Part shown: one piece after another, positions 15,401-60,540 of the stretch
Position numbering within the stretch: the first letter of the stretch is position 1
How the letters are laid out: the number at the start of each line of letters is the position of its first letter
Source: Romanomermis culicivorax
Taxonomy: Eukaryota; Nematoda; Enoplea; Mermithida; Mermithidae
Direction of reading: 5' to 3'
DNA length: 64,000 bases
Assembly (NCBI GenBank): GCA_963922205.1
Contig: CAWUHX010000070.1
Span: 1,116,001-1,180,000, forward strand
Notes under the pieces: generated by a model
Databases searched by the model: none
Seen by the model: only the letters and a program-made list of their open reading frames with translations
Told to the model about the DNA's origin: nothing
Translations under genes and position numbers: made by a program

Positions 15401-18400
15401 GTTTCTGTTTCTCAGTGATTATTTTCTGACAACAATTGCATTGTTCGCTCATTTCCTTGTTCTACGTCACTAATTATGACAATTTAACGAAAATTAAGAG
15501 ATTTTTTCTGCATTAACCAAAAGAAGAGAAGTGCTGAGAATCTCAGTAGTCATGAAAATGTACATTCTGACAATTTTGACCATCAAATGAAAGTTGGAAC
15601 ATCTGCTAAAGTCGAACCCAAAATTCGTGATGACAATGAATTTTCCAAAACAGTTGTTGATGTATAAGCTTGTGCTTTACAGAATTCTGCAATTAATTCT
15701 GATGTCGAATAGTTAAGACTGTTCACAGTCATGATGAAAAATGCTGCTGCTGCATCATACACAAAAAGACTCTGCAACACTCGTTTCGGATCCACTGGCA
15801 ATCCGAACTCACATGGCTAGAAAAGTTATCAAATAATGAAGTCAAATGTACAATCTGCGAACAAAACAAATGAATTATTCTCATGCTTAGCTCTTGTAAA
15901 CTCACTTAAATATTTATTTATAAGCAGGTCATTAGCTCGAAACTTTGTGCAAAAAAATGTTGGTTTTTTGGTGGAAGAAGATACAAGTTAATGAGAAATG
16001 TTCAAAAAACATATTAAAATGATTTTGAATGATTTTTAAGCAAACTAAAAAATTGATTTTTCCTTATGAGGAAAAAATTTTTGGAGTTTTTCCTCAAATG
16101 GGACGAAAAGTTTTTGGCAAAAAAATACTGGTGTGTAAAAAACCGTCTTATATCCTGAACGGCATACGTCAAATACATTCCATGCTCTTCATTAGCATAT
16201 TGTGTTTTAACGTAGTACTGAAGTCGTCAAATTGAAATTTCGGAAACTAAATTTTATGAAATTATTTCAAGCAATATCGTGCATATGGGACTTCGGCAAC
16301 ATGACAACATACAGTAGATGAAATGGGCGAGTTGCTGAATTGAACCACAGCATAATGTACTTGCAATACAATTTTTTTAGCTTGAAAATATTTATGATTA
16401 CTACATTAACATAATAACTAAAGACTGATTCAATTGAGTCGCTAGTTGAAATAACATATTCATTCTCTGTATGGTTAAGAAATAGTGGCTGAAATGGATA
16501 AATTGCTGAATCGTAAAACAACACATCATACTGTACATTTTATGAAATTTTTACGCTTCCAAAATATCGAAATTTATTGATTTTACACTTGGTAGACTGA
16601 TGGCACGCAGTGATTCAATTGACAGTGGCTTAAATGAGCTGGTTGCTGAATTGAACCACGGTAAATTATATTTTCGATGATCACTCCAATAAAATGACGT
16701 CTGCAACAGCGATTATTTAAAATAAAGAAATAGTAGCTACAATGGTCTATTCCTAAGTGAATGATTCCCATGTGAGCTATTCTCAATTGAGTGATTCCCC
16801 ATTGAGCGAATTCCCAAGTGAGCCAATTCATAATTGAGCGATTCCCATGTGAGGGAATTCCCAAGTGAGCGAATTCTCGATTAAGCGATTTCCATATGAG
16901 CGAATCCTCCATTGAGCGATTCCCACGTAAGCGATTCCCAATTGAGCTAATTCCCAAATGAGCGAATTTTCAATTAGGCGACTCCAAACGAGCAATAGAG
17001 AACAATACATTACAAGTTATCATTTTTAATAAGCATTTTCGCTTATGTAATTGTTATACTTCGGCACGTTCCATTTCCTATCTAATTTATCCCTTGTGAT
17101 TTTTTCTTCATTCTTATCTATTTTTCATCTTATTTTTTTTGCTTTTACTTCTTTATATTTATCTTTTTCTATTCTCCTGATCCTTTTTTTGTTCTTTTTT
17201 CACATTATTTTTTCTTTCTTCCTTGCTGCGTTGTCTATCTTGCTTCTTCTTTCTTGTCACTTTTTTCATGTTTTCTTTTTTTTCTAATGCTTTTCCACAA
17301 GGAAAATTTGAAGAAAGTGTTATCAGATTCTCGATCGCTCGTTTGGAATCGCTGATTTGGGAATTCATTTAATTGGAAACCGCTCTCTTGGGAATTCGCT
17401 CAATCGCGAATCGTTCATTTGAGAATTTGCTGACTTGGGAATAGCTCACATGAGAATACCCCGCTACAATGAGTAGATCGAAAAATCGTAACATATCATA
17501 GTGTAGATTCGATAAATTTTTTCAATTTCAAATTAAGTATTTGAAAGTATTTAGCGGCTAAAAGTGACAAGTTGCTGAATCGAGACAATTCCTACTGTAA
17601 TTTCAATAAAATTCTCGCCGATTTCAAAAATGATTATATTTTCAAGAAATAATGCGCGTTTGACACAGTGGCTGAAATGAATCATTCTTTGAGTATCGGA
17701 ATTCATAGAACCTTTAATTTCTCTACAATTTTCTCAGGTTCAAAATACGGATGACGTCATCGAAGGTCAAAAATCGCCGTCACGTGATCAAAACGGCGTC
17801 GTTTTCCGTTCGACGACGACCGACGGCGGCGAAAAAATTTACGAATCGTTGAGCAAGGTCGTGACCGAAAAAAACAGTCTTTTGACCACGGCGGACGTCG
17901 AATTCGAAAAAAATCGCGAAACGAAAGGAGCGACGCTAGATTTTAGCCGCCCGGAATCGTTCGAGTTTCGGGAAGGTTCTAATCTGGAGAAGAACCAACT
18001 CAACAACAACGGCGTTTCTCAGAAGAAAACTTTGGTGACCGAAGACGCCAGGCAAGTTATGCTCAGAAATGAAAAATTATTGGCCGAAGCAGAAGCGGCG
18101 AAAAAAGTTGACGACCAAGGATCGGAGGTTACTGTAGAAGTGGTGGGCGAAGTTACTGTAGAAAATTTGGAAAAGCATACTGTAGAATCAACGACGACAA
18201 CGCCTGAAGATCAAGAAAAAATGGTCGAACCTACCTTGAAGCCTTTTCTACCAAAAAGACAAATTGCCAAACCGCAAAATTTCGATCCGATGGATTCTTG
18301 GCGTAGTTTAAATTCTATACCAAATTTACAAACTTTGCGCGATCATTATCAAAAATACGATTTGTCGATCGGTCGGGAAATTTCGGTCAAAGAAAATTTG

Positions 18401-21400
18401 CGTACGAAAATTTGGCCTACGATTCCGAACCGTTTCGCCCAACCGGAACCCGTCTATTTGGGGTACGACGAAAAATTACCCGAATTCAAAAAACGACTCA
18501 TCGAAACGGGAACTTTCGATTTTGGACCACCAACGACGACGACGAAAACGATGGCGGAAAAAAATTCGACCGATTTCCGAAAAAATGACGACGACGACGC
18601 CGAAAAAAGGGACGAATTTTCGCCAAATTTGAATCGAAACGAAAAATTTAGAACGAATTCTTCGACGAATCGTCCGGCGGAGAATTCGGATATCGATTTC
18701 AGGTATTTTTTCGACTTTTTGGGTGATCCAGTAATAATACTGTCAGATTCTAGTTTTCAGTTTTTTGGATCTACAATCAAAATTACTGTAGTGCTAGATA
18801 TTGAGGCTCCCCATGCTCGCATTTTTAAAGAAATACATATATTATAACTTATCCCACATTATAAGATATCCCGTTTTATAACATATCCTATGTTATAACA
18901 TCTATACAATGTTATAGCATATCCTACATTATACTACGTTCCATGTTACAACGTATCTCATGTTATAACATATCGCATGTTATAGCATATCCTACATTAT
19001 AAATATCCAATGCATAAGTTTTTTGAAAAAAAATTTTAATATGTTATAACATAGGGCTGTGTTGTAGCAAAAGGCTATGTTATAACATATGGCTTCGGTA
19101 TAAAATTGTTTTTTGAAAAAAATTTCTTTTATGTTATGACATAGGTCATTGTTGAAACATAGGCCGTTGTTATAACATAGGACCATGCTATAACATACAG
19201 CATGATACTTATGGTATACTTAATGTACAGCATGTTTATACATTGCTGTATCAAGTGCTAATGTCGTATTTGCTTCAAAAGGTATGTCTTTTAACAGGCA
19301 GATGTATTTTATGTGTGTGTTGTGACAAATATAACATGACATATGTAACAACATGGGATATCTTGTAACATGGGATATCTTCTAACATGAGATATGTTAT
19401 AACATAGGGTATGTTATAACATATATATCCTTTAATGTGGTATATGTTATGATGTGTAACATGTTATAACATATTATATGTTAAAACATGCCATATATTA
19501 TAACATATCATACACTATATTATAAAACACCCCATGTTATAACATACCTCTCCATGTTATAGCATACCTCTCCATGTTATAACATACACTGTGTGATAAG
19601 ATATGCTGTGTTATAGCACAGCTCCTCATGCTATAACATATGACCATATTGTAACTTAGGACCATGTTATAACATAGGGCTATTTTATAGCACATGGCGT
19701 CCATTGCACTATATGGTTCTGTCGCTTACATTCTTTCAGAAAGATATATCTTATAACATGCTGTACAGTTATAGTGTTGCGAACCTCACACACACAAACG
19801 GATACTTGAATTTTAATATTATAGATTTAAAAAAATTCAAACCATTGAAGTATAATATGATTCTATTGTATAAAATTTGAACCAAATTTCGGATCTTAAA
19901 ACATAAATTTACCCTGAGAAAATAGATTAAAACGATTTTAAGCAAAAAAAAATTTTGTTCTTAAAAGTTTACTGTTGTCTAAAACATTTTTACACTAGGA
20001 TCTAGCGAAATTATTCAAAGTCAAGCATTGTAGTTTTATGGACAGTTTTTCATATGAACGAAATCATCATAAACAATTTCTGCGTTAATCACTAAATTTA
20101 TTTGTGTCCATAACTTGCGTCAAAGTTTAAACATGTGAATGTTTAGGTCATCAAATATTCTATTTTCTGAAAAAGTCGAAAATTATGTAGCCTCAAATTC
20201 GCTTGATTAGGAATGGGAATCGAATTTTATAAAGCAATAAAGTAATTAAATTTAATCTCGACCAAATGAGATCTTTTAAGGTTTAAGATCAGAAATCTTG
20301 AGAATTTAATTTCACTGATCAAATTCTACTACTAATTTTGAACCATGTATTTCTACTGATTTGAACTTCTAGTTTTTGATAACGTCATTTAACTTCAGCT
20401 AGAAATTATCCATTTGTGAACTATAGTCTGTTTAATATAAAATGCTTTCAGTACTGTCGTCAAAATCGTCCACATAGAGCTCTTGTGGTGAAATTTTTCA
20501 CTCGAAGAATTGTTAAAGATGAGGTCAGTATGCTCACAAATTTTCAGTTTTATACGATGATTTGTTTATCAGAAAATCGTGAAAATTTGAAATACTACTT
20601 GCTTTCCGCTTTCATTATTTGGAAGCATTTCGGGAAAAACAGACTATAGACAATAAAATTTCCTCATCAAAAAATATGCGATTTGAAAATATCGGCGAAA
20701 GCTAGATTTACAATAAATTTTGTAATTTCATCCATTACAGTAACCGATTTTGTCAAATTTACTGCGGTTACCGCGGAAAATTTTTTTGATTTGTTGATTT
20801 TAAAAAAATTTTATGCCAATTAGAATTCTGGGTATCGAAAGTGCGTCAAATTATTAAAGTCTCCTATATTTAAATATTTTCGAGATTTCGGAAAGAATTT
20901 CGAATGATCCAAAATCCTTGAAAAAAAGCAAATCTTGAAAAAAATGAAAAGAAGAAACGGTTGTAGCAGAGAAACGAATAAAATTTTCATTACTGTAAAG
21001 GTTTACTGTAGCTCCAAAATTATTCAACGGTCGAATGCGTAAAAAGTACAATTATTGAAATATTTACAGTCAGTTTTCTGCATCTTCTACAGTTATTAGT
21101 AATTATGGATGCATACATTGCACACACGAATGTTCAAACATAGAGCTATTCAGATCGTGGGATTATTTGATAATTGGCAAATTGCACTTGTTTGTTTTTT
21201 TATCCGAGTCGAAAAATGAGATATCGCAAATTTTCTTGGTTAGGAATCGGGATCGATTCCTCTAATCTAATAAGAACGTTTTTTTGCCACGTGTAAAGAT
21301 TTTTATATGGATGATCAAATTGAGCTCGCCTTCAGAATCAGGAACTCGGGGGAATTTTATAAAACAGAAATAGAATTTCTATGCCAAATTTTTCAGGTTT

Positions 21401-24772: not shown

Positions 24773-25755
24773 GGACTATTCTCGTGTGAGCGATTCCAAG
24801 TGAGCGCATTCTGAAATGAGCGAATTTTGGACGATTCTCAAATGGGCGATCAACAATGCAATAGCACTGTTTTTATATTTTCCATCATTACCTTACATTT
24901 TTCTTTGTATGTATTTCTTTTTTCTTTCGTTTTCAGTGTGTGTTCAAAAACTTACATAAACAAAAGTCTCTGCTTCCTATTATTTTCTTTTTCTTGTCAT
25001 CAACTTTTTTCTTTTTTGTAATGAAATAATACATTACAAGTTGTAATTTTAAATAACCATCATTTTCCGTATAATTCTTATACAGGGGTATTTAATTTTC
25101 TCCCCAGAGATTTTTTCTTCATTCCTACTTGCTCTATCTTCATTTTTTGTATTCTCTTACTCCTTCCTTTGTTCGTTCTTTTTTTCACATTATTTTTTCT
25201 TCCTTTCTTGCTGCTTTCTCTATGTTGCTTTTTTATCACCTTTCTTCATGTTTTCTTTCTTTTTTATTGCTTTTCTACCTATTTTCACTTTATTCATTTT
25301 TGTTGACGTTTTCTTTCTTCCAGCATTCTTTTGTTTATGTTTCTTATAATTATTTTCCATTTACAACGATGAAACACTCAAGCATGCCCAACTGTATAAG
25401 AATAATAGGATAGACTATGATTATTTAAAATGGCAACTTTTAATGTATTGCTTCATGATTTGAGCAAAAAAGAAAAAACTGGTTGACAGGAAAAACGAAA
25501 ATGAAAGAACGCAGAGACAAACGACGGAAATGTAAACACATACATAAACAAAAGCATAAGCAACGCACACAAAAAACGAAAGAAAAAAGAAATACACGCA
25601 AAGAAAAATATGAGGCAAAGAAGGAAAATATGAGGATAGTGTTATTCTATTATCGATCGCTCGTTTGGAATCGTCTAATTGGGAATTCGCTCATTTGAGG
25701 AATGCGCTCACATGAGAATCGCTCAATTGGAAATCGCACACTTGGTAATCGACCG
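24773..25755. mobile_element. Foldback element with tandem-repeat arms, copy 3
   Basis: It starts GGACTATTC and has a shortened left repeat zone (GTGAGCGATTCCAAGTGAGC). The inner sequence ACATTACAAGTTGTAATTTT and the inverted right arm (AAAATGGCAACTTTTAATG onward) end in units CTCAATTGGAAATCG and GGTAATCGACC. A perfect 8-bp duplication, TTCCAACA, lies at 24765-24772 and 25756-25763. The repeat zones contain fewer units than in copies 1, 2 and 4. It lies in intergenic DNA. Confidence 0.85.
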
Positions 25756-26428: not shown

Positions 26429-27660
26429 GGTCTATTCCCAAGTGTGCGATTCCCAATCGAGCGAATTCCGAAATGAGTGAATTCTCAATTGGGCGACTCC
26501 AAACGAGCAATAGAGAAAAAAGTAACATTTTCTTCACATTTTCCTTCTTTACCCTATATTTTTCTTTGTATATATTTCTTTTTAATTCCGTTCTGTGCGC
26601 TGCAGTTATGTTTTCGTTTATGTGTGTTTTTGCATTTTTATCTTTTATCTCTGCTCTCTTTCATTTTCATTTTTCTTGTCATCTTCTTTTTCTTTTTTGC
26701 TCATGAAACAATACATTACAAGTTGTCATTTTTAATACGCATTGATTCCCATGTAATTGTTATACAACTCGGGACGCTCTATTTCCTATTTAATTTTATC
26801 TTTTGTTATTGTTTCTTCATTCTTATCATACTTTTCATCGTAGTTTTTTTTTGTCTTTACTTCTTTATTATTATATTTTCTATTCTCTCGATTCTTTCTT
26901 TTTTTGTTCTTTTTCAAATTATTTATTGTTTCTTCGTTGCTGTATTCTTCGCATTGCTTCTTCCCTCTTGTCACTTTTCCACCAATTTTCACATTTTCTT
27001 AATGTATTCATTTTTGTTGGCGTTTCTTTCCTTTTGATGTTTTCTTTCTTCGTGCATTCTTTGTTTATATTTTTATGAAGATTTTCATACTTACAACGAT
27101 GAAAGACTCGAGCATGTCGAAATGTTCAAAAATTATACGGGTGACTGCGGTTATCTAAAATGACAACGTATAATGTATTGTATCATGAGAAAAAAGAAAA
27201 AATTAGGTGACAAGAAGAAATAAAATGAAAGAAAGCACAGACAAAAGATGAAAACGTAAAACCATATATAAACGAAAACATAAGCAATATACACAGATAA
27301 CGAAAGAAAAAAGAAATACGTACTAAAAAAATATAAGGTAAATAAGGGAAATTTGGAGAAAGTGTTATAACATTCTTGATCGCTCGTTTGAAATCACCTA
27401 ATTGGGAATTCGCCCATTTGAGAATTCGCTCAATTGGGAATCGCTCACATGGGAATCTCTCAATTGAGAATTCGCTCAATTTGGAATTCCCTCAATTGGG
27501 AATCGCTCACATGGGAATCGCTCAATCGGAATTCGTTCACTTGGAAATTCGCTCACTTGGGAATCATTCACTTGGGAACCATTCTCTTGAGAATCGCTCA
27601 CCTGGGAATCGCGCACTTAAGAATCACTCACTTTGGAATCGCTCACATGAGAATACCTCC
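26429..27660. mobile_element. Foldback element with tandem-repeat arms, copy 4
   Basis: At 1,232 bp this is the longest copy. The left end is GGTCTATTCCC and the left arm includes ACATTACAAGTTGTCATTTTT near 26711. The right arm has the largest repeat zone, with more than a dozen units such as CTCAATTGGGAATCG and CTCACTTGGGAATC, ending in GAATACCTCC. Possible 8-bp flanks (ACTGCCAT left, CCTGTCAT right if the boundary is shifted) match at only six positions, so this duplication is weak. Long Ser/Leu/Phe-rich open frames inside are artefacts of the T-rich arms. Confidence 0.8.
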
Positions 27661-36900: not shown

Positions 36901-39900
36901 AGGGCTTCTTTAAACTGAAATTTGCATAAATGTGCTACATATAAATGATCCCAGAAACTCTAACAGATACTATGGACAAGCCTAAAATCACATTCGATAG
37001 AGCTCACTGGCATAGGAAAAGTTTCTCATCTGTGTGCTCTTCTCATAGGAATTTAAAGATGAACGCTAATTCCGATGAACATCATTGTACCCTTCACAGT
37101 TGTCTGTCTGATGCGTTTCTCAACATCACCTAATCTTCATCCGTTTCTGAGGTGAACTTACCATTGTAGACCATATTTATGCAATTTTTAATGTAAAAAA
37201 GATACACTGCACGCATGCCTATAAGCTATCAAATGGACTATAACATGCAAATGTTCGAAATTTAGGAAGACCCTCGCGGGTAAGCTTCTGGAAATGGTTA
37301 AAGTTCTGTTAGGTTTACACTGTGTGATAGAGTACCAATCGCTAAATACAGTACTGAAAAGCATTTTAAAAATCTATACTTCAATAAAAGCATTAGTATC
37401 TTTTTGAGTCACTCTGTAAATGATGTAGTACAAAAAATGCAATTAATAAAAATTTCGGTCAATTTTCTTCTCTCCTCTCCATAAAAATTTATTCACCGCC
37501 CCAGGGAGGGCGTAGAGCGATTTTTCCTCTGTTCGCCCTATTCGCCGACACGTTACAAAAATCTACAGTAGCAAAAATGGGCGGCGAAACCCTTTGATCT
37601 TATTGTTCGATGTCGTAAAAAGGAGTATGTACGATATCCTCAAAATTAAGAAAGATCATGAATTTAGAATTAGAATTTGTTTTTTTTTCTTCTACTTTTT
37701 TCGGAATAATTTGGAAAAAATCGCCTTTTTTACGGCGGTCGTATAATAATCATCGGCGAAATGTTGCAATTTTTAACCTCGGCGGGGCAGGCAGTTTGCT
37801 TTTTATTATTGGCCGTCTTGTATAAACACACACAAAAATTTATTTTAGCTAATTTTCCGCCTTTTAAAGCAAGCTTAGGCTGCGCGCGCGTTAGAGAAAG
37901 ATCAAAAGGAAAAAGCCGCCCGGCTCTAATATTTACATAAGTATGTTTATGTAATCGCTTTCTATATTTTCTATCTTTCCTAGAAGAAAATTTTACAAGC
38001 AGCTTTTTGGTGTTACTTCGGAATTATTTCTTCCCTCCCTCTCCCTCTCAATATTTGTTTTATTTGAATAACGTAAAGTCCTACGGTTACGATTTAATTC
38101 GTATAAATAATAATATGTTAATCAATCTGAAACGCCTCGAGCATGCCCCTGCAACTTGTGTGGTTCATGATCAAAAAGTTTAGAGATAGATAAATATACA
38201 TAGGCTTATTGGGCAGAAAGTACATAAATTTTGAAAAACTGTCAATCAGTCAAGGCGTAGGTTTGCAGCAACGAAAATGGAGGGGGAGATCAACCAATTT
38301 TTTGCAAACTTTGACCTCGCATATCTGGATCAAAAAGGAGGGTACGCCATTTTAAATTATGTTTTTGAATAGATTTCAACCAGACCTATCGATTGATATT
38401 CAAATTATTTTGTTTTAAAGGAATAAAAATCACGTTCGTGTCGAAAAGTCATAGCCTGTACGGTTTCACCCCTGTTCAGCGAAACACACAACAGCTAAAC
38501 TCAAAATAGCGAGACTCAATACAGTGAAGTCGCAATACAGCGATTCTCAAAACAGCGAGTTCGTAGAACAGATTCTCAAAATAAAGAATTTTCAAAAAAG
38601 TTATCTTCTCAGAATGAAAAAATGGAGATTGGGCGGGGTAGACGTTTTGGCGCATGGCCTATTTGGTCCGCCATTTCGATCCGGTGGATGTTGGTTGTCA
38701 CACATTTTGGCGCCAATCTCCAGATTTCTCCGTCTATAGCATGTGTTTTCACATTACAGCTTTTTATTCTACTTTGCTTATTATTAACATATCTACATGG
38801 ATGTTTTTTGTTTCCTTTTTCCTTTATTGACTTACTCCCTTTTGTATTGTTCTTATTTTGAGCCACTTTTTGTCGTTTTTGTTTAATTTTTTCAGGTTGT
38901 GTACTTTTGTTATATTTTTTACCTACTTTTTATTACATTATTTTACTTTTCATTTCTTCATTATTTGTTTTTTGTTTTGCCTTTACTGCTTAATTATTTT
39001 ATTCATTTCATTGCTTATTTAATTTTGTTTTATTCATTTCATTAATTGATTTTTTTGCGATTAGGCTCCATACAAAACAATTTTAATTAGGAATTCTTAT
39101 GATGATTTTTTGTTTTTGTTTTTGTTTCAAACGTTTTCCAAAAATTTTTTCTGACTGATATTTCTTTGTGATTTTGGAATAGTCCGTTCGTGCATACCTA
39201 CCGCAACTGCAGCACAAAAGCATGTGAAACTTAGATAGCCAAATTCAACTAAAAATAGACACTCAACTAAAAAAAACGATTTTAATATACCTAATTTGCA
39301 TATTTATTTTAAAAATGATGTGTGCGTTTACTCTAACGCATAGAACTTTTTACTATTCGCTGTATTGAGATTCGCTCTTTTGAGAATCGCTGTATTGAGA
39401 TTTCGCTGTATTGAGAATCGCTGTTTTGAGAAACGCTATTTTGAGTTTCGCCGTTGTGTGTTTTGCTGTATTGGGGACACGCAGTGTGTACCATGCATGT
39501 ACATCATAGAAATGTGAGTTGTGGGGTGTCTGAACCGAATTTTTTCCAAAAGTTCTCCGAACTCAGATAAACTCCGTTTCTGAATCTTTCTCAGTGTGCT
39601 CTTTCAGTTCCAACAAAAGAAGTGTAACTTATTTTTTCATTAAATTTCCGATTGTGTCGCAACACTTTGGCGCCCATGATGAAACGAAAATGTTTGTGCC
39701 CTCGTCTCGAAAATTCAAGGTCACACCGCTACATTACTTCACTAGGGAACGTTCGCCGATAAAAATTCATTATCGTCTATTCCATAAGGCGATCTCAGTA
39801 ACGTTACACTAGACGTTCTTCCAGTGAAACTTATTTACACAAAAATTTACATAAATATACTTGATAATGGTAATTCAGCCTATACTTGATCTCAGCAACA

Positions 39901-49549: not shown

Positions 49550-50462
49550 TGTAACGACCAGATTTGTGTGAGGTACTTTACTTCTACCAATTGGTCGATA
49601 CGGCGGGGCAAATAACGGGACGGGGGCACGGGCGAACGATTACAAATACGGGGCGATAATATACGAACAATCGACGGTCGCTTGAACGTCGACAATAAAC
49701 GCGCTTCGAATTAAAATACGGACGGGGGCCTCGGTTTAAGTGCTTTCGAATAGTCGGCCGCTTGCAAATGTATAAAGACGGGGCGAGCGCGGGAGTCAAA
49801 ACGGAAACAACCACAAGAATAAGAATCAGAAGAATGATCAAAATCACGCTTTGCTTCTTCTTTTATACGGCGATTTTGGCCACTCCCTGGGCGCTGCGGG
49901 AGGTCGAGCTTCTGTCCATCTTCTTCCGCCAATCGTCGTTTCCGGCTACGCTTTTTATGCTTTCTTAGTTACGCCTCTCTAACGCTTTTCTGGTACCGTA
50001 TGCTTTCTGTGCTTCACTTGCTTTCTACGGTGGGCTTGGCCACACCTCTGTGCTTCTGTGCATGCTTCCTGTATCGGTTTCTCTGTATACACACGTTTTG
50101 TGGGGCCGCCGCTACTGTTACACTTGAGACTACTGTACGGCGGGGCTTCTACATATTTTACTGTGTGCAGGTGTTGTTTACGATTTTTACGGGGGATTAC
50201 GGTAGCTGTGGAATGTGTAGTTTAGTGTAGGTTCTAGGGGAACAGCTGCCGTTTGTGCAAATTAATTAGGGCATCTTAATTGGGCTACCGGGGTGTGAAC
50301 GGATCAAAATAAAGTACTTCACGTAATTTTGTAGGAATGTTTGGGTGTGAATCCCAGACATCCTTGAGACGATAAAATGTGAAAATAAAATAATATCTAA
50401 TAAATGTCTATTACATACAGTATGCTACATGTTTACAGTACTGCTTTAGCAGGTACGTTACA
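49550..50462 (-). repeat. 3' LTR of the retrotransposon
   Basis: Begins TGTAACGACC and ends GGTACGTTACA (+ strand). It differs from the other LTR by a handful of substitutions and small indels, mainly around 49795-49850. The 116-codon sense frame present in the other LTR is broken here. Confidence 0.93.
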
Positions 50463-50475
50463 TTTCCCTCCTTCC
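50463..50475 (-). promoter_or_regulatory. Polypurine tract
   Basis: TTTCCCTCCTTCC on the + strand, that is GGAAGGAGGGAAA on the element strand, directly abutting the 3' LTR. This is where plus-strand DNA synthesis is primed in LTR elements. Confidence 0.85.
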
Positions 50476-50493
50476 GGAGTTGAACGTCCTCGT

Positions 50494-53400
50494 TCAAGGC
50501 TTTCGAGGTTGAGGAGGGGTGGGGGTAGATGCGATAGTTGCTTTCCGAGGGTAGAAAGGGGTTGTCTCGTTTACATGCACCGTAAATGTAATATTCTTAT
50601 GGGGGTGTTTGAGTGTAACGTTGGGGTACATGAAGTTTGTAACTGTATAGGGCCCGTTCTGGCGAGGGAGGAATTTGGGAGTCAGCCCTTGTTTACACGA
50701 ATGATTTTTGTAGAGAATAAGATCACCTGCCTTGTAATGTATGTTCTGAGCATGCTTGTTATACTGACGGGTATAGTGGGCTTGGGCTTTTTGCAAACTT
50801 TTCTGCACGGTTGAGAGTGCTTCTGTGAAATGCGATTTTACACGAAGGGCGTAATCGTCTAAGTCAACCATGTAGGACGTGGGGAAAAAATTTAAAGCTG
50901 CATCTGACGGCAGATTAGCTTGTCTACCGTGGAGTAATTCAAATGGGGGATATGAAGTGCTATCATTTTTATGGATGTTGATCGAAAAAAACGGCATACG
51001 GGAGATAAGTATCCCAATCAGTGTGATTTGAATTGATGTACATGCGGATACGGGTGGCTAGGGTTTGGTTGCAATGCTCAACTTCTCCATTGGCAATGGG
51101 ATGATATGGGGTAGTGTGAATTTTCTGAGTATTGCATAAACTGGTGATCCGTGAGAAGAGATCAGATACGAAGTCGGTGCCACGATCACAATGGATGATT
51201 TTTGGGGACCCATGACGACAAACAATTTTGGTTACGAATAGCTTGGCAATAGTGGCTGCAGTGATGTCAGGGGTCGGGAATGCCTCTACATACTTTGTGA
51301 AATAATCGATGAAAACGACAATGAACCGGTTGCCGTCTTCAGTGAGGGGTAACGGTCCCATGCAATCAACACCAACTCGATCAAATGGGCCAGTTGGCTG
51401 AATTGGTACCAAGTTTGCATGCACTTTGTGTCTAAGAGCTTTCTGTGTCTGGCATGGGTGGCAAGTTTTGCAGTAACGTTTGATATCACGGCTCATTTGG
51501 GGCCAAAAATATTTCTGTCTGAGCAAGTGTAAAGTTTTCCTGGCCGCAAAATGACCTGTGAACTTGCTGTCATGATGTGAGGCGATGAGATGCTGGACTT
51601 GCGACTTGGGAATGTATAGTTTTGCCTGTTTGTCGACTATACGGAAGAGAATGTTTTGATGCACTGCGAATTTGATCAGAGTAAGGGGGTGTTTTTGGGC
51701 GATTTTTGCTAAAATACTTTTGACAGTTGGATCAGTGCGTTGGAGTTCGGCAAAGTTTTTCTGTTGCTCTTCTTGTTCAGTTGCTTCGGCTTCCAAAACT
51801 GAATTGATAGTTGATATTTCGGGGCGGGTTTCTAATTGCTCAATATCAAAGGATTGCTTTGCTGTCTGTGAGGGGAATCGAGAGACGGCATCTACGTTGC
51901 GGTTAGCAGTGCCTTTCTTGGGTCGAATGTCTAGCTGAATACCAGAGAGGGCTAATCCCCAACGGGCAATGCGAGGGGACGGGTTTTCCTTTTGTAAGAC
52001 TGCCTGAACTGCTGTGTGGTCAGTGTGTACAATGACATGTTGCTGGAAAAGATAAGGGCGGAAATACTTGACAAATTCGACTACTGCAAGGGTTTCCAAC
52101 TCTGTGATTGGGTAGTTGCGTTCTGCGGGTTTCAATGTGCGGCTCCCAAAAGCAATGGGGCGATCCTGACCTTTACTATCTAGCTGACTGAGAATGGCGC
52201 CGATTCCGAGTTTTGAGGCGTCAGTTTGCAGAATAAATGGTTTTGTGAAATCGGGATGCTGCAGTATTGGGGCATGGATGAGTAATTCTTTGAGCTTAGT
52301 GAATGCATTTTGCTGTTCAGGGCCCCAGGAAAATTCGGAGTTCTTTTTGAGTAGCGATGTGAGTGGGCTAGAAACTTGGGAGCAATTTGGGATGAATCTG
52401 CGATAATATGAGGGTAGGCCAAGGAATGACTTAACTTCTTTTGAGCTTTTGGGTGTGGGTATGTCATAAATGGCCTGTACCTTATGGGGATCTGGTGAAA
52501 TGCCTTGCTGGGAAATGACGTGGCCTAAGTATTGGACTTGGGGCTGGCAGAATTTGCATTTTTGTATGTTTAGCTTAAGGCCTGCTTGTGAGAATCGGGC
52601 AAGAATAGTGTCTAAACGTTCCAGCATTTGGGCATGGGAGTCTGCGAATACCAAAACATCGTCGAGATACACAAGGCATGTGTTCCATTGCAGACCCGAA
52701 AGAATAACATCCATTAACCTTTGGAATGTGGCTGGGGCATTGGTGAGTCCAAAGGGGAGGTAATTGAATTGATACTGGCCAGCTGAGCAATTGAAGGCCG
52801 TTTTTTCTCTGTCTGCTTGTGCTATGGGAATGGAATAGTATGCATTGGATTGGTCAAGGGAGGTGAAATATTTCATTCCACGGAGGGTGTCTAGAATTTC
52901 GTCTATCCGGGGCAAGGGGTAGGTATCTTTTTTGGTGACTTTGTTGAGGCCTCTAAAATCAATGCATAAACGATGGCCTCCGTCTTTTTTGGGAACTAAA
53001 ACTGTGTTGGTACACCATGGGGAATTGCTTTGGCTTATGACACCTGCTGCTGCGAGTTGCTCAACTTCTGCTTGTATGATTTGCTTTTCTTTTGGGGAAG
53101 TCCGATAAAGTTGTCTACGTACGGGTTGGGAGCCATTGGTGTCAATTGTATGTGAAACGAGGGTGGTTCTACCTACATCCATTTTGGATTTAGCATATAA
53201 TGTAGGGTACTTCGATAGGGCGCGTAGGAGTTGCATTTTCTCTGTTTCTGTGAGGTCACTGGAGGTCAAATTGACATTTTCTTTTAACCATGTGAATGTA
53301 TCAAAACGGTTGGGCTGGTTTTGCGTTGAAGGGGTTAGATTAGCGGGAGCATTTTGTTTTGGGATGTAACATGAGACTGTACCAATGCATGTTCCAGGAT

Positions 53401-54262
53401 AAAGAATTTGGGCTGTTTCTTGTGTGTTTAGGACCGATATGCGTATGCGACTGTTTTGATTCTCAGATATACAAGCTGCGAAATGGACTTTGGGATTCTG
53501 TTTGGGTTTTGGGGTGAATTCAAGCTGTTTGACCTGTAAGTACGATTTGGGCAAGGGGACAGTAAATTCGGTTACTGTACGGGGTGGTAATTCTAATTTC
53601 TCATCCAAATAAGTTCCACCACGAGTTGAAAGAGGGCTATATTCTAGGCCATCACAAGGTAGTATAACATTGCCAAATTTGACCTGTGATTTTTGATTGT
53701 TGATAGTGTATTCCGAAAAACGACTGAGAAAGTTTTTGCCTAGAAGGATGTCTGCTGTGCAATCTTTTTGGACATGGACCATGATTGTTTCCTGGATTGT
53801 TTGGGCTGTCACTGTGACAAAAGTGGTTCCTACAAAGTGAATCGGAAGATTATTTGCTGCTTTTGCTTGGACTAGCGGGGGTTTCATGTCTAACTGTAAA
53901 AGTTGAGCGATTCGGGAATCAATGAGTGAGTAAACTGCACCAGTGTCAATCATGCCTTTTGTCATTAATTTGCCGTTAAGTGTGATTGGAATATGAGGGG
54001 TATGTTTCTCAGGTACGTTTTGGGGTGGCTTATTTGATGCAGATTGGTGAATTTGATTAATGAGTTCGATTGCAGGAGTTCGGGGGGTATCGATATCGAC
54101 AAGGACGTATTTCTGCTGTGTTTGCGCCCCACGACGATTAGCTAATTCTAAAAGAGCATGGCCGAATGATGGGGGAATAGTCTCATGTAAATGTCTGTTG
54201 TTTGATGGTATTTCGTATGCATGTTCGTTTGTGGCATGATGCTTTGGAGAGGGGAAATATTT
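50494..54262 (-). CDS. pol: pol: protease, reverse transcriptase, RNase H, integrase (one frameshift)
   Basis: The frame opens immediately after the TGA that ends the Gag-Env frame and stays open for 3.2 kb. The first in-frame ATG is at 53965, just before the protease active site MIDTGAVYSLID. Counting from that ATG: RT core with DFRGLNK (~337), LPFGLTNAP (~403) and YLDD (~433); RNase H with TDAS (~581), TELE and HTDHT (~647); integrase zinc finger H-x3-H...C-x2-C (~797-838); and the D,D,E core (VDCMG ~867, HCDRGTDF ~925, NGEVEHCNQ ~959). At 50985-50991 a run of seven A (T on the coding strand) shifts the frame, so the upstream frame ends at 50969. The integrase C-terminal region (FELLHGRQANLPSD, YKAGDLILYKNH) continues in another frame to 50494. 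This is either a recent mutation or an assembly error in the homopolymer. Confidence 0.93.
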
Positions 54263-57200
54263 TCAAAGAACGAGAAACGAATAAAAGACGCCTGCAATAA
54301 CTACAGTAATAACGGCGAGATTGATAATGATTTGCAGGGGTCCTTTGAGTAAATTGTTTAATCCGTCTGTGAGACTTTGGGTGGTACCGGTTATTACATG
54401 TTCTATGCCTTGACCGGCGCCAGAGAGTGTATTTCCGAGTGCTTGGCCAGTGCCTGAGATCATGTTGTAAACTGTATCGGAGTTGAGAGACATTTGGGCG
54501 GTGTAATTGACGAGTTTTTTGACAATGTTTTCGAGTGTGTGAGTTTTGTAAATGTATTGTTTCAAAAAGAGTAAGTTGGTTGAAATAGTTGCAAGTTGAT
54601 CATGGAAAATTGCCGGTGTATTAAAATGGAAAAGGGAGAAATTTTGGTTCCAGACAATTTCTAAAGGTAAATTTGTGACATGTGGGGATCCTGTTTCACT
54701 GACCCATGTATTATTCTGTTTGTAAAGGGCTACATGCATGTGATGGCAGTCAACGGTTTGCGAGAAAGGGGTCAAATCGTTGCCTCCTGGATTTGAAAAC
54801 ATGAGTTCAGTTCCTACGAGAATGGGCAAAAGTTTGTAGCATGTTTGGTTGATTTTATGGTTGTAAAAGATTTTAGATGCATTTACTTGTTTACAGGGCC
54901 AGACTGTGAGGGCTTCTCCTGTGAATTCTGCTATGATGTCGGTTCTCTGTAGGAATGCACGCGCTCCAAGGGTTGCATCAAGACGTAAAATTTGCCATAC
55001 GAGATCAAGGTGACGCTGTGCCTGTCTGCATAATTCATTCCATACATTTTTGAAATTTTGAATTTCGAATTCCTGTATTTTGTCTGCTAGATAGTTTAGT
55101 TTTGCATTGATGGGTTCAAAATCATCAAAATCGTATAGTGTAGTATGAGTTTCGTTGGTTTTTGGGGTTAAAAATGCGTTACGATGTGGGGTGCTTTTGT
55201 CTAATTGTACAATAATGCCTTGTTCGGTTAGAATGCTGTCTTGGATTTCTGGGCAATTGGGGTTCGAAAAAACTGTATTTTTAACCGAGAATGCACCTTG
55301 TAGCTCTTCTATTATCATGTGTGTTTGCGTGAGTTTGATGGGATGTGTATTTTTGTATTCGAAAGGGCATAAGTTTTCAAATGCGGTTTCATTCCAGATA
55401 ATGGATCCGTCGGCTGTGACACAATGACCTGATGTCGGTTTGCATGACCCTAGGTCGCCTAATGTACCTGTCATAGATTTTCCATTCCAAGATGCTATTT
55501 GTCCTATTTCTATGATGACGTTAGTGACTGAGGTACAATGGTCTGTACAACACCATGTGTATTCTACGCTTAGGGAGTTATTTGTTGACCAAAATCCTGG
55601 TTGGGTTTCGTATAATTTTTGACCGTTGTGTTCTTTGTCTATAACGATTGCCTTACAAACATGTGGGGTTAGATTTTGCATTTCGGTTTGGTCGAAGACA
55701 ATACCTTTTGATCCAAAAAATCCTGTATTAGTACAAATTTTGCGTTTGCGAACACTGCATTTGTATGCGTCTGTAATGTGGGGCTTAGTGGAGGGGATAT
55801 AGATTTTTCCGAATGTTTGTACGGGTTTGTCTACTGTGGAAGGGGGCATGCATGATACAAGTTTTGGTATGCTGACTGAGTGACCGCTCAATGAAGTTCC
55901 ACACATCTGAAATTGGGCACTACACGATGTGGGGATTATTATACATAAAAATATACAATACAATGGCCAATGTAGTGTTTTAGTGGAGGCGGCGGGGTAC
56001 TGTATATTTTCGTTCTGGCCGGTTTGGCGTGGCGGCTCTTGGTGTTGTTCGGTTTTGGGTTGAGGGGGTGGCCGGTTTGCAATCTGAACATTCTGTAAAA
56101 CTTTAGAAGTTGAGTCATGGGATGGGGTTTGGACTTGCTTACTTGTGGGGGTTGGTAGAAGTGTTTGGCGGGGGCGGAATTGATAGGGTTCGGGGGTCAG
56201 GCCATGGAGAAGGGATAACAAGTTGCGGCCTGTTTTTGACGGGGTTTCGGGGGCGGTGGGCGGCGTTGTGTCTTGCTTTCGGGGGATCTTGTAGCCTACG
56301 GGGATGGTGGGCGGCGATTTTTCGATTTTTGCGGCTTCAGGCGTGGGGGGTGGTGACATGGCGCACCAATCGGGTACGTCCAGATCAAGGACGTATTCGT
56401 CACTACGGCGGTGGGTGTTGGGCATGATAGTTCCTAAAGTAGTCTGAGGGCCGTTAGTTATGGCGGGTAATTTTGAGTAAAATGCGGGGTCGTCAATGTC
56501 CATGAGGGGTTGGGGTTGCCTGTACTCAATGCAATTTTGAATATTACGACTCTGCTGATTTGGACAATATCTGCTTGTATGACCTCTCTGCTTGCATATA
56601 AAACATTGAAAATTGGAGTAGGGTTTTGAAGGGCAGTTATCTGATCTATGTCCTGTTTGGGAGCAGTGGATGCATGGGCTTTTACAATCACGTGTACTGT
56701 GATTATTACGGAAACAGATTTCACATGATTTTCGGGTACCTACTGATTTACAATTACGAGCTACGTGTCCGATTTGTCCACACTGGAAGCATGTGGGTTG
56801 CCTGGGGGTGGTATTGTTCCTGTAAGCATTATTCCTGCTGAAAGTGTTGTTACTGAAATTGTTGTAGCTACTCTGTTGTGGGGGTTGAGGTTTTTGTTTG
56901 ATCTGCAACTGTAAATCTTTTACTTGTTGTTCTAACTGATGCAAAAGATCCTGTTGGTCTGTATTTTTGGTTAGGGAAAAGATGGGTTCGGGTTTTGGGG
57001 GTATGAAGGGAAGGACGTTAGATTTTAACTCATTTCTAAGAATTTGCTGTTCAATGTAAGCTGCTTCGTCTGACATTTCTTTTAGAGTTGCGAACCTTCT
57101 ATACTTAATTGCTTCCCTGATTTCGTTTTGCATGCCTTCTACAAAGAGGGGTTTTATGATCATTTCTCGTGCGTCTGTGTTAAAGTTAGGGTAGGCGAGG

Positions 57201-57718
57201 GTTGCGAGATGTTCTAGATCAAATAAGAATTCCGTTACTGTTTCTGATCGCTTTTGTTTTCTTTCGCGTAAGAATTGTTGATGTAGCTCATTATCTCTAT
57301 TGTTTGGGAAAAATGCCTGTAATGCGACTTTATACTGCTCGTATGTGTGGGGAGGGTTTTCGGAATTTGCTAAACTTTTGAATTTTGCTAACGCGGCTCC
57401 TCCTAAATGAATTTCTAAACATGCCAACTTTAACTGTACGTCTGTATCTTTCATGCCTTGGAGTGCCATGAATTGTTCTAATCTTTTGTTCCATTCACCA
57501 AAATGTTGGGTCACGCCGCCCGTGAATACTGTAGGTTTCGCGTAGAAATTGTTTGCCATGTTATTACGAATGTTTGCTGTTCTTAGATCGTCTATTAGGG
57601 TAGGGTTTACTGTATTCTGATTCAATTGTGTGCGTAGGGTACGAAAATGTTCTGAAAATAAATCGTTTATCTGTTCTCTAACGATTTCTCCTAAATGATC
57701 TTGCGTTTGGTGGGTCAT
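54263..57718 (-). CDS. gag-env: Gag fused in frame to an envelope-like glycoprotein (1151 aa)
   Basis: Residues 1-300 are a capsid-like Gag region (FTGGVTQHFGEWNKRLEQFM; RKQKRSETVTEFLFDLEHLA). Four CCHC zinc knuckles lie at about 310-323, 332-345, 349-362 and 372-385. A proline-rich linker follows (~450-580). A hydrophobic segment, LHWPLYCIFLCIIIPTSCSA (~582-601), looks like an internal signal peptide. Then comes an ectodomain with about 20 cysteines and several N-glycosylation sites (NNS, NET, NQT, NNT, NFS), a Gly/Ser-rich amphipathic stretch (~1088-1120), and a C-terminal membrane anchor (~1127-1151) with almost no cytoplasmic tail. It ends at TGA (54263-54265). It is unusual that env sits before pol and in one frame with gag. 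The frame is also open for 111 codons upstream of the ATG, back into the LTR. The glycoprotein family is not identified. Confidence 0.88.
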   Translation of the reverse strand: MTHQTQDHLGEIVREQINDLFSEHFRTLRTQLNQNTVNPTLIDDLRTANIRNNMANNFYAKPTVFTGGVTQHFGEWNKRLEQFMALQGMKDTDVQLKLACLEIHLGGAALAKFKSLANSENPPHTYEQYKVALQAFFPNNRDNELHQQFLRERKQKRSETVTEFLFDLEHLATLAYPNFNTDAREMIIKPLFVEGMQNEIREAIKYRRFATLKEMSDEAAYIEQQILRNELKSNVLPFIPPKPEPIFSLTKNTDQQDLLHQLEQQVKDLQLQIKQKPQPPQQSSYNNFSNNTFSRNNAYRNNTTPRQPTCFQCGQIGHVARNCKSVGTRKSCEICFRNNHSTRDCKSPCIHCSQTGHRSDNCPSKPYSNFQCFICKQRGHTSRYCPNQQSRNIQNCIEYRQPQPLMDIDDPAFYSKLPAITNGPQTTLGTIMPNTHRRSDEYVLDLDVPDWCAMSPPPTPEAAKIEKSPPTIPVGYKIPRKQDTTPPTAPETPSKTGRNLLSLLHGLTPEPYQFRPRQTLLPTPTSKQVQTPSHDSTSKVLQNVQIANRPPPQPKTEQHQEPPRQTGQNENIQYPAASTKTLHWPLYCIFLCIIIPTSCSAQFQMCGTSLSGHSVSIPKLVSCMPPSTVDKPVQTFGKIYIPSTKPHITDAYKCSVRKRKICTNTGFFGSKGIVFDQTEMQNLTPHVCKAIVIDKEHNGQKLYETQPGFWSTNNSLSVEYTWCCTDHCTSVTNVIIEIGQIASWNGKSMTGTLGDLGSCKPTSGHCVTADGSIIWNETAFENLCPFEYKNTHPIKLTQTHMIIEELQGAFSVKNTVFSNPNCPEIQDSILTEQGIIVQLDKSTPHRNAFLTPKTNETHTTLYDFDDFEPINAKLNYLADKIQEFEIQNFKNVWNELCRQAQRHLDLVWQILRLDATLGARAFLQRTDIIAEFTGEALTVWPCKQVNASKIFYNHKINQTCYKLLPILVGTELMFSNPGGNDLTPFSQTVDCHHMHVALYKQNNTWVSETGSPHVTNLPLEIVWNQNFSLFHFNTPAIFHDQLATISTNLLFLKQYIYKTHTLENIVKKLVNYTAQMSLNSDTVYNMISGTGQALGNTLSGAGQGIEHVITGTTQSLTDGLNNLLKGPLQIIINLAVITVVIAGVFYSFLVL

Positions 57719-57938
57719 TCTTGGTTTACGATGGGATTTCTGCTTAAATGCTTCAATTTTTGCTTCACGCTGTATTCGTTTAAATGTATCGCTTAATGTC
57801 TCGTTGGAGGGGATTTCCAGTTTGCTTAATACGAATACCGTCTTACTGTAGGAAATGATTACTACTGTATTATCTAATGCTTCTAAATGCCCGGATAAGA
57901 GTACACCTAACTGGGGGCAGGGAGTTCCACTGGTTAAC

Positions 57939-57956
57939 GTAACGGTACGGTCACCA
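57939..57956 (-). promoter_or_regulatory. Candidate primer binding site
   Basis: On the element strand the 5' LTR is followed by TATTT and then TGGTGACCGTACC. TGG is what pairs with a tRNA CCA end. The tRNA cannot be named without a search. This site lies within the open frame that leads into Gag. Confidence 0.45.
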
Positions 57957-57961
57957 AAATA

Positions 57962-58877
57962 TGTAACGACCAGATTTGTGTGAGGTACTTTACTTCTACC
58001 AATTGGTCGATACGGCGGGGCAAATAACGGGACGGGGGCGCGGGCGAACGATTACAAATACGGGGCGATAATATACGAACAATCGACGGTCGCTTGAACG
58101 TCGACAATAAACGCGCTTCGAATTAAAATACGGACGGGGGCCTCGGTTTAAGTGCTTTCGAATAGTCGGCCGCTTGCAAATGTATAAAGACGGGGCGAGC
58201 GCGGAAGTCAAAACGAAAAAAGAACCACAAGAATAAGAATCAGAATCATCGTCAAAATCACGCTTTGCTTCTTCTTTTATACGGCGATTTTGGCCACTCC
58301 CTGGGCGCTGCGGGAGGTCGAGCTTCTGTCCATCTTCTTCCGCCAATCGTCGTTTCCGGCTACGCTTTTTATGCTTTCTTAGTTACGCCTCTCTAACGCT
58401 TTTCTGGTACCGTATGCTTTCTGTGCTTTGCTTGCTTTCTACGGTGGGCTTGGCCACACCTCTGTGCTTCTGTGCATGCTTCCTGTATCGGTTTCTCTGT
58501 ATACACATGTTTTGTGGGGCCGCCGCTACTGTTACACTTGAGACTACTGTACGGCGGGGCTTCTACATATTTTACTGTGTGCAGGTGTTGTTTACGATTT
58601 TTACGGGGGATTACGGTAGCTGTGGAATGTGTAGTTTAGTGTAGGTTCTAGGGGAACAGCTGCCGTTTGTGCAAATTAATTAGGGCATCTTAATTGGGCT
58701 ACCGGGGTGTGAACGGATCAAAATAAAGTACTTCACGTAATTTTGTAGGAATGTTTGGGTGTGAATCCCAGACATCCTTGAGACGATAAAATGTGAAAAA
58801 TAAAATAATATCTAATAAATGTCTATTACATACAGTATGCTACATGTTTACAGTACTGCTTTAGCAGGTACGTTACA
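57962..58877 (-). repeat. 5' LTR of the retrotransposon
   Basis: 916 bp, TGTAACGACC...GGTACGTTACA on the + strand. On the element strand it carries a TATA box (TATAAAAG, 58274-58281) expected to drive the genomic RNA. A sense frame of 116 codons (58346-57996) starts upstream of the TATA box and is broken in the 3' LTR, so it is probably not a gene. Confidence 0.93.
58274..58281 (-). promoter_or_regulatory. TATA box in the 5' LTR
   Basis: CTTTTATA on the + strand, read TATAAAAG on the element strand within CGCCGTATAAAAGAAG. The same sequence occurs in the 3' LTR near 49857. Transcript start is expected about 30 bases toward lower coordinates. Confidence 0.6.
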
Positions 58878-58901: not shown

Positions 58902-58973
58902 GGGTGCAGCCAGGAGTCGAACCTGGGTTACCAGCATTTCGGGCTGATGTCCTCACCACTAGACCACCACACC
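58902..58973 (-). tRNA. tRNA-like gene, anticodon GAA in an atypical loop
   Basis: On the minus strand the 72 bases fold into a cloverleaf. The acceptor is GGTGTGG/CTGCACC (seven pairs, two wobble), the D arm GTCT...GGAC, the anticodon stem TCAGC/GCTGG (one G-U) with loop CCGAAAT, and the T arm CCAGG-TTCGACT-CCTGG. A box (TGGTCTAGTGG) and B box (GGTTCGACTCC) are good, and a T5 terminator follows (TATTTTTC). The loop gives anticodon GAA (Phe), but position 33 is C instead of the near-universal U, and the body resembles Glu/Asp-type tRNAs more than Phe. It may be a pseudogene, a SINE head or an unusual tRNA. It ends 24 bp from the LTR element. Confidence 0.6.
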
Positions 58974-60079: not shown

Positions 60080-60266
60080 TGTCACGTGTCGCACGGCTGT
60101 ACATCACCCCTTCGTAACTATCGCAACACCAGCTCGGTAGTTCAATCGGTAGAACGCTGCACTATAGTCAACAAGATCCGGGTTCGAATCCCGGTCGAGC
60201 AATATTTTTCAAAAATGGTGTTTGGCGATGGTTACGATGACAACGCGTTTACCCATTTACGTGTCA
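60080..60266 (+). repeat. TRIM left LTR
   Basis: 187 bp, TG...CA ended, containing a tRNA-like block at 60131-60201. Shared with the right LTR apart from a few changes (for example CACGGCTG versus CACAGCCG). Confidence 0.8.
60131..60202 (+). tRNA. tRNA-like sequence in the TRIM left LTR
   Basis: The acceptor AGCTCGG/TCGAGCA pairs at six of seven positions. The D arm GTTC/GAAC is perfect. The anticodon loop CTATAGT is canonical in form (anticodon ATA). The T arm CCGGG-TTCGAAT-CCCGG is perfect. The anticodon stem (CTGCA versus CAACA) does not pair, so this cannot be a normal tRNA. The A box TAGTTCAATCGG and B box GGTTCGAATCC fit the Pol III consensus. It is best read as a tRNA-derived promoter block rather than a working tRNA. 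Confidence 0.55.
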
Positions 60267-60353
60267 TGGCGGGGCTTGGATTGGTCCCACATTGGTGGGC
60301 CGCAGAACCTGCATCTTCAACGGACGAGGTCGTCCTTCTTTCAAGGGGGGGAA

Positions 60354-60540
60354 TGTCACGTGTCGCACAGCCGTACATCACCTCTTCGTAACTATTGCAA
60401 CACCAGCTCGGTAGTTCAATCGGTAGAATGCTGCACTATAGTCAACGAGATCCGGGTTCGAATCCCGGTCGAGCAATATTTTTCAAAAACGGTGTTTGGC
60501 GATGGTTACGATGACAACGCGTTTACCCATTTACGTGTCA
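60354..60540 (+). repeat. TRIM right LTR
   Basis: 187 bp, TG...CA ended, preceded directly by the polypurine tract AAGGGGGGGAA and followed by the CTTT duplication. Confidence 0.8.
60405..60476 (+). tRNA. tRNA-like sequence in the TRIM right LTR
   Basis: Same block as in the left LTR, with GAATG for GAACG at the D-arm edge and CAACG for CAACA in the unpaired anticodon strand. A and B boxes are unchanged. Confidence 0.55.

Follow-up and report, generated by a model that had tools for sequence, protein, structure and literature searches.

The errantiviruses (Drosophila gypsy and its kin) and the canonical retroviruses are, like the element described here, long terminal repeat (LTR) elements with Gag, Pol and Env, but they encode Env in a 3′ gene of its own and express it from a spliced RNA; the errantivirus Env is of another fusion-protein class. 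For retroviruses and env-bearing retroelements, the Gag-Pol-Env order and the spliced env have been regarded as nearly universal. As far as the available text of the sources goes, the env genes of a zebrafish endogenous retrovirus and of barley Bagy2 are reported as spliced, and the fusion-protein env of rotifer elements is ORF3, in the usual place. Dingle, from the annelid Dimorphilus gyrociliatus, is likewise a Ty3/gypsy element with a herpesvirus glycoprotein B (gB)-like env of the same fusion-protein class, and the available text places this env downstream from integrase (PMC7854359), whereas in our element it lies inside Gag-Pol. Anakin likewise carries a glycoprotein of the same broad group, taken from chuvirus-like negative-strand RNA viruses, but belongs to BEL/Pao and not to Ty3/gypsy; in the accessible part of that report the env of earlier BEL-Pao elements lies downstream of the polyprotein, and the figure legend gives the Anakin glycoprotein last (PMC7642597). 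A 2023 survey by the same group mentions, in the text available, fragments of Gypsy next to such glycoproteins in Hymenoptera as well as other orders, and a single complete but unclassified element in Bemisia tabaci (PMC10084718). Here we analysed a stretch of 64,000 nucleotides from the nematode Romanomermis culicivorax (contig CAWUHX010000070.1, positions 1,116,001 to 1,180,000; hereafter the window), which holds an LTR retrotransposon on its minus strand. We consider it probable that this element represents a Ty3/gypsy lineage carrying Env inside Gag-Pol, between nucleocapsid and protease, in one polyprotein threaded through the endoplasmic reticulum (ER).

An earlier note, made from the letters of the window, had claimed an LTR element at 49550..58877, and these limits agree with the alignment of the LTR pair (902 matches, 11 mismatches and 2 gaps). 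It had also described a first open reading frame (ORF1) with four CCHC knuckles, a proline-rich linker, a signal-like segment, a glycosylated ectodomain and an anchor, all of which we recovered, and an env-like block upstream of pol, which indeed sits between Gag and protease with pol after it. The features of the window copy are as follows.

57962..58877, minus strand: 5′ LTR, 916 bases, with the ends TGTAACG...CGTTACA
57939..57956, minus strand: putative primer-binding site, TGGTGACCGTACCG..., assigned by inference
54263..57718, minus strand: ORF1 (Gag and Env), an open reading frame of 1151 codons
57059..57430, minus strand: Gag capsid region (Retrotrans_gag 6e-5 and Ty3_capsid 6e-4, both under the Pfam curated cut-offs)
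56564..56791, minus strand: four CCHC zinc knuckles of the nucleocapsid (Pfam and motif)
55916..55966, minus strand: internal signal-peptide-like hydrophobic segment, ORF1 residues 585-601 (hydrophobicity)
54332..55915, minus strand: Env ectodomain, predicted class III fusion protein (Pfam, fold and cysteine conservation)
54281..54331, minus strand: predicted C-terminal membrane anchor of Env, ORF1 residues 1130-1146 (hydrophobicity)
50969..53965, minus strand: pol frame after ORF1, with protease (PR), reverse transcriptase (RT), RNase H (RH) and integrase (IN) (Pfam)
53720..53956, minus strand: retropepsin-like protease (Pfam)
52514..52996, minus strand: reverse transcriptase (Pfam and solved-protein match)
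51944..52327, minus strand: RNase H (Pfam and solved-protein match)
51098..51613, minus strand: integrase, H2C2 and core domains (Pfam and solved-protein match)
50494..50997, minus strand: integrase C-terminal part, in a different frame in the window copy (GPY-like motif by eye; no significant Pfam match)
50463..50475, minus strand: polypurine tract adjoining the 3′ LTR (direct reading)
49550..50462, minus strand: 3′ LTR, 913 bases

The knuckles (CX2CX4HX4C) start at ORF1 residues 310, 332, 349 and 372 and are followed by the proline-rich linker, and nine NxS/T sites lie from residue 682 to residue 1071. Env is placed upstream of PR and is not a gene 3′ of pol as in retroviruses and known env-bearing LTR elements; the last pol frame stops only 31 bases short of the 3′ LTR. 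Several features identify the element, by sequence, as a member of the Ty3/gypsy LTR-retroelement family. The PR-RT-RH-IN domain order found with Pfam is that of Ty3/gypsy (Metaviridae), and the best solved-protein matches of RT and IN were Ty3 Gag-Pol (E=8.5e-121) and Ty3 RT (4.6e-93), followed by another enzymatic polyprotein (1.1e-60). The LTRs end in TG..CA, and 4-bp target-site duplications, within the 4-6 bp expected of Ty3/gypsy, flank 9 of ten other copies. The picture for Gag is more mixed: the four CCHC knuckles are clear, the capsid matches of the window stay under the curated cut-offs, and Retrotrans_gag exceeded its cut-off in a relative (P0005). The TGGTGACCGTACCG... stretch after the 5′ LTR was near-identical in 10 of 10 other copies inspected.

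The window copy itself is damaged, its integrase being divided between two frames. A search of the 359-Mb genome with the Env protein gave 4208 first-look candidates, of which 76 were scored, so that 76 is a floor; there are thus at least 76 env matches (window included), 98-100% identical. In 50 of the 76 scored copies the open frame was 2470 codons long or longer. Stops were checked piecewise in 39 copies, the 19 highest-ranked and the 20 lowest-ranked of the env list (L015 was left out here and from the env-set polymorphism ratios below, being of unequal length). In 27 of the 39 no stop broke the frame on its way from the Gag part across Env into RT, and Env was free of stops in all 39, which is partly a matter of choice because the copies had been found by the Env protein. 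A stop directly after Env occurred in one copy of the 39, that of the window. Since this stop is private to the window among the 39, the appearance of two ORFs represents damage to that copy, and a functional recoding site at the end of Env could be ruled out. The claim that gag and env share one frame was thus upheld; the frame end after Env was confined to the window copy among the 39 checked, and in the 50 long-frame copies Env is fused to Pol as well as to Gag. As read from these sequences, the coding unit of the family is one Gag-Env-PR-RT-RH-IN frame.

An Env-blind search with leader DNA gave 1101 candidates, of which 40 places were scored; the env position was fetched for 12 of them, none among the 76. 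In 11 of these 12 copies Env covered 1723 or more of the 1725 positions, at 96.6-97.6% identity and with some small gaps, and the remaining one had 350 bases of Env within the stretch fetched. The earlier note had asked whether other copies would reveal a one-off insertion of env; the arrangement proved common to the family. Some copies form tandem-like pairs in the same orientation ~8.4 kb apart (G000 C122:529082/C122:537491 and C2:2957097/C2:2965498), which fit tandem elements sharing an LTR, as expected.

The same layout was found far beyond this genome. Two protein searches, which admitted lengths of ~870-2760 and 1260-4010 amino acids (aa), yielded 12 relatives from outside it, with env identities of 20-40% to the window and 17-40% among themselves. 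Nine of them (P0001, P0003, P0004, P0005, P0007, P0008, P0009, P0010 and P0012) are single ORFs of 2293-2707 aa in the order CCHC-Env-protease-RT-IN, the protease being recognised by its DTG motif only in P0008 and weak in P0009. The ORF of P0011 begins at the signal peptide and continues with Env, a DTG motif, RT and IN; P0002 also begins there, with Env, a DSG motif and an RT start seen by eye (Pfam matched only Env), and P0006, a gene model of the nematode Meloidogyne enterolobii, reads Env-PR-RT. These sequences indicate that the layout is old and common to distant relatives. Neither IMG/VR nor GTDB contigs, given one pattern scan each, provided a confirmed relative.

Env and pol distances were correlated over 12 sequences (env versus RT-IN, Mantel r 0.66, p 3.5e-4; without P0006 0.68, 6.5e-4), P0002 being left out of the tree comparison as it has no full RT. 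Well-supported groups common to the env and RT-IN trees were (window, P0012), (P0005, P0009), these four together, (P0003, P0004) and (P0008, P0010). The simplest reading of the trees is a single gain of Env into Gag-Pol followed by joint descent, with some exchange possible. Three further matches, P0013, P0014 and P0015, came from another search that used an env profile and admitted lengths of ~320-1010 aa; the last two consist of Env only. The P0014 fragment lies on a 1.4-kb contig filed under a gammaproteobacterial metagenome-assembled genome and is probably animal DNA binned with bacteria. In P0008 a dUTPase domain (E=7e-21) stands between Gag and Env; the Gag-Env linker therefore accepts other insertions.

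The note had called the env-like block an envelope-like gene, and the hidden Markov model (HMM) and structure checks specify it further, as a predicted class III viral fusion glycoprotein. Env scored 67.6 bits, against a cut-off of 27, with PF24664 (Pfam; class III/Monjiviricetes glycoproteins), and its fold model has a gB/G fold with a long central helix; a prediction from the single sequence had been useless (predicted local distance difference test, pLDDT, 33.5). A PDB sequence search with the single Env sequence gave no match, and one with the env profile A3 had herpes gB as its top match (E 0.011, not significant by itself). Twelve cysteines of the ectodomain are kept in 14 of the 14 full-length env rows compared. 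The damage to the window copy might suggest that rearrangement or chimerism had produced a single aberrant copy, or that a non-glycoprotein domain had been misread as an envelope. We consider the chance of either negligible: the 76 scored copies, 11 of the 12 leader-picked copies and the 12 long relatives rule out a one-off insertion of env, and the Pfam and fold results contradict a non-glycoprotein identity of residues 600-1151.

To evaluate constraint we used ratios of nonsynonymous to synonymous polymorphism (pN/pS), excluding copies that differed by >4% or >5% in a region (two runs), which removed shifted frames. In two env-chosen sets the ratio was 0.07 and 0.107 for env (19 and 20 of 20 copies), 0.20 and 0.19 for gag (11 and 15 of 20) and 0.08 and 0.10 for PR-RT (12 and 19 of 20); these sets were ranked by Env protein score, which biases their env values downwards. 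The fair estimate is that of the copies picked by leader DNA only, 0.155, a point estimate for env alone from 7 of the 12 copies (of the other five, one was the 350-base copy and four failed the gapless start-to-end filter). By these point estimates, Env appears to be constrained about as strictly as gag and pol. In addition, the LTR pairs of the ten other copies, which were top-ranked and so favour young insertions, differed by 0-9 mismatches over ~890 bases, pointing to a young and recently mobile family. The window copy is older than these ten, with its 11 LTR mismatches and no target-site duplication visible around it.

This constraint also bears on whether Env still serves infection. It might now be a membrane-anchoring or assembly domain for intracellular particles, since its fusion to Gag and Pol would hold the particle proteins at internal membranes, and copies do multiply within the genome. 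However, the whole ectodomain with its 12 cysteines is kept among relatives of 17-40% identity, and env pN/pS is well under 1 within the genome. Because an anchor alone would not need a conserved ectodomain, we regard this role as decidedly unlikely.

In all 13 sequences (the window and the 12 relatives) Env has a hydrophobic segment before it, and in 12 of them an anchor after it. Such a pair would leave Gag and Pol cytosolic and carry the ectodomain into the ER. In the window the closest methionine before the signal segment is 131 residues away. From the domain order, single frame, fold, conservation and selection signal established above, we infer the targeting, the cleavages and the fusion activity of Env. 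Gag would be translated in the cytosol, after which the internal signal sequence would direct the ribosome to the ER and the class III ectodomain would be translocated and glycosylated. The C-terminal anchor would halt the transfer, so that PR-RT-IN would be synthesised back in the cytosol. Release of Gag from Env would fall to signal peptidase, and release of Pol from the cytosolic side of Env to the protease that the element encodes. In this way Env would need no spliced mRNA to arrive at membranes, and both Gag and Pol would start out tethered to the membrane that bears it. Env would probably act in membrane fusion, for spread from cell to cell or horizontally.

Several points weigh against a single ER-threaded Gag-Env-Pol polyprotein. 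It is deduced from DNA and protein sequence; the equal Gag:Env:Pol output that it implies is unusual for a particle and does not account for an excess of Gag over Env and Pol. The Env fold model is of medium confidence (pLDDT 66.7, predicted template modelling score 0.42) with a poor stem. The signal peptide and anchor were called by hydrophobicity only; no anchor was seen in the Meloidogyne model P0006, and the count of segments is not clean in every case, because two hydrophobic segments stand before Env in P0012, and extra weaker peaks occur inside Env or Pol in P0001, P0005 and P0007. A methionine lies no more than 24 residues before the hydrophobic segment in 7 of the 12 relatives (P0002, P0005, P0008, P0009, P0010, P0011 and P0012, two of which are ORFs starting there), so that some members of the family may use separate starts. 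The first two protein searches admitted only long proteins and would therefore have missed a separate env gene. The env and RT-IN trees conflict on P0001, P0006, P0007 and P0011. Finally, the Env of P0013 lies downstream of a BEL-type-looking integrase end (DUF5641 E=0.015, below the cut-off), which suggests that a BEL/Pao element also carries this env family, there in the usual downstream order. The env tree leaves P0013 without resolution (support 27) and at that point does not distinguish viral origin from exchange with BEL elements.

The frame might also be kept open while the products are separated at the RNA level, splicing either removing env to give Gag-Pol or joining the Gag start codon to Env. 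Splicing is the usual means of expression among known env genes. In our scan, which covered the internal region with a general consensus, acceptor-like sites were in weak excess (7 versus 4.5 expected), and the LTR, a possible location for a donor, lay outside it. Donor-like sites, however, were at chance level in the internal region (11 versus 9.9 expected), where none had fewer than two mismatches. Moreover, 27 of the 39 copies and 9 of the 12 long relatives keep the frame continuous over the junctions, a continuity that splicing by itself would not demand. We consider RNA-level separation unlikely.

The surroundings of the element include other repeats and gene-like sequences. A tRNA-Phe-like gene lies at 58902-58973 of the window, 24 bases from the element; targeting of tRNA genes was not supported, as ARAGORN, applied to 20 terminal pieces of 10 other copies with ~350 bases of flank apiece, detected a tRNA in none of them. 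Two tRNA-Ile-like sequences at 60080-60540 lie in a 187-base direct repeat spaced 274. Dispersed arrays of a 15-16 bp minisatellite (unit like ATTCCCAATTGAGCGA) occur on both strands at 11392-11502, 12362-12486, 16764-16985, 25656-25751, 27400-27654 and perhaps 39355-39473, and several arrays of 17-20 bp units with TATAACAT at 18842-19689. Two plus-strand frames, 12386-13339 and 17849-18847 (317 and 332 codons), have no Pfam match; overlapping or adjoining repeat arrays, they may be chance products. Elsewhere in the genome, a COX1-like stretch (L041, G000 C117:992573-993922) covers profile positions 2-436 of 436 on a contig of ~1 Mb or more and is open only with TGA read as tryptophan (invertebrate mitochondrial code); it is probably mitochondrial DNA inserted in the nucleus.

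The note knew of no described family with this order, and we found none either: full-text literature, with preprints and most subscription papers outside its coverage, gave no description of Gag-Env, Env-Pol or env-upstream-of-pol elements, and the Gag-Env-Pol layout appears to be undescribed within the literature covered. Troyka, as presented in the available text, likewise has one Gag-Pol frame but, unlike our element, no env (PMC12440569). The element would also represent the capture of a Monjiviricetes-type glycoprotein by Ty3/gypsy, of which the 2023 survey, in the text available, had no clear case (PMC10084718). A lineage that is mobile and conserved and has Env within Gag-Pol shows another route by which a retroelement gains an envelope, and its layout raises a testable question of topology and stoichiometry. 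We are evenly divided on a broader proposal, that a deep animal Ty3/gypsy lineage follows a flavivirus-like strategy, making Gag, a class III fusion protein and Pol as one ER-crossing chain from which signal peptidase and the element's protease, and not splicing or frameshifting, would yield the parts of an infectious particle, with env gained once and travelling with pol since. The flavivirus polyprotein consists of capsid, an internal signal and envelope, then protease and polymerase, and is threaded through the ER. It has no homology to the element, contains no reverse transcriptase, and includes several envelope or membrane proteins with a class II fusion protein. Nevertheless, as far as sequence alone can tell for our element, the proposed Gag-Env-Pol chain resembles it both in order and in its threading through the ER.

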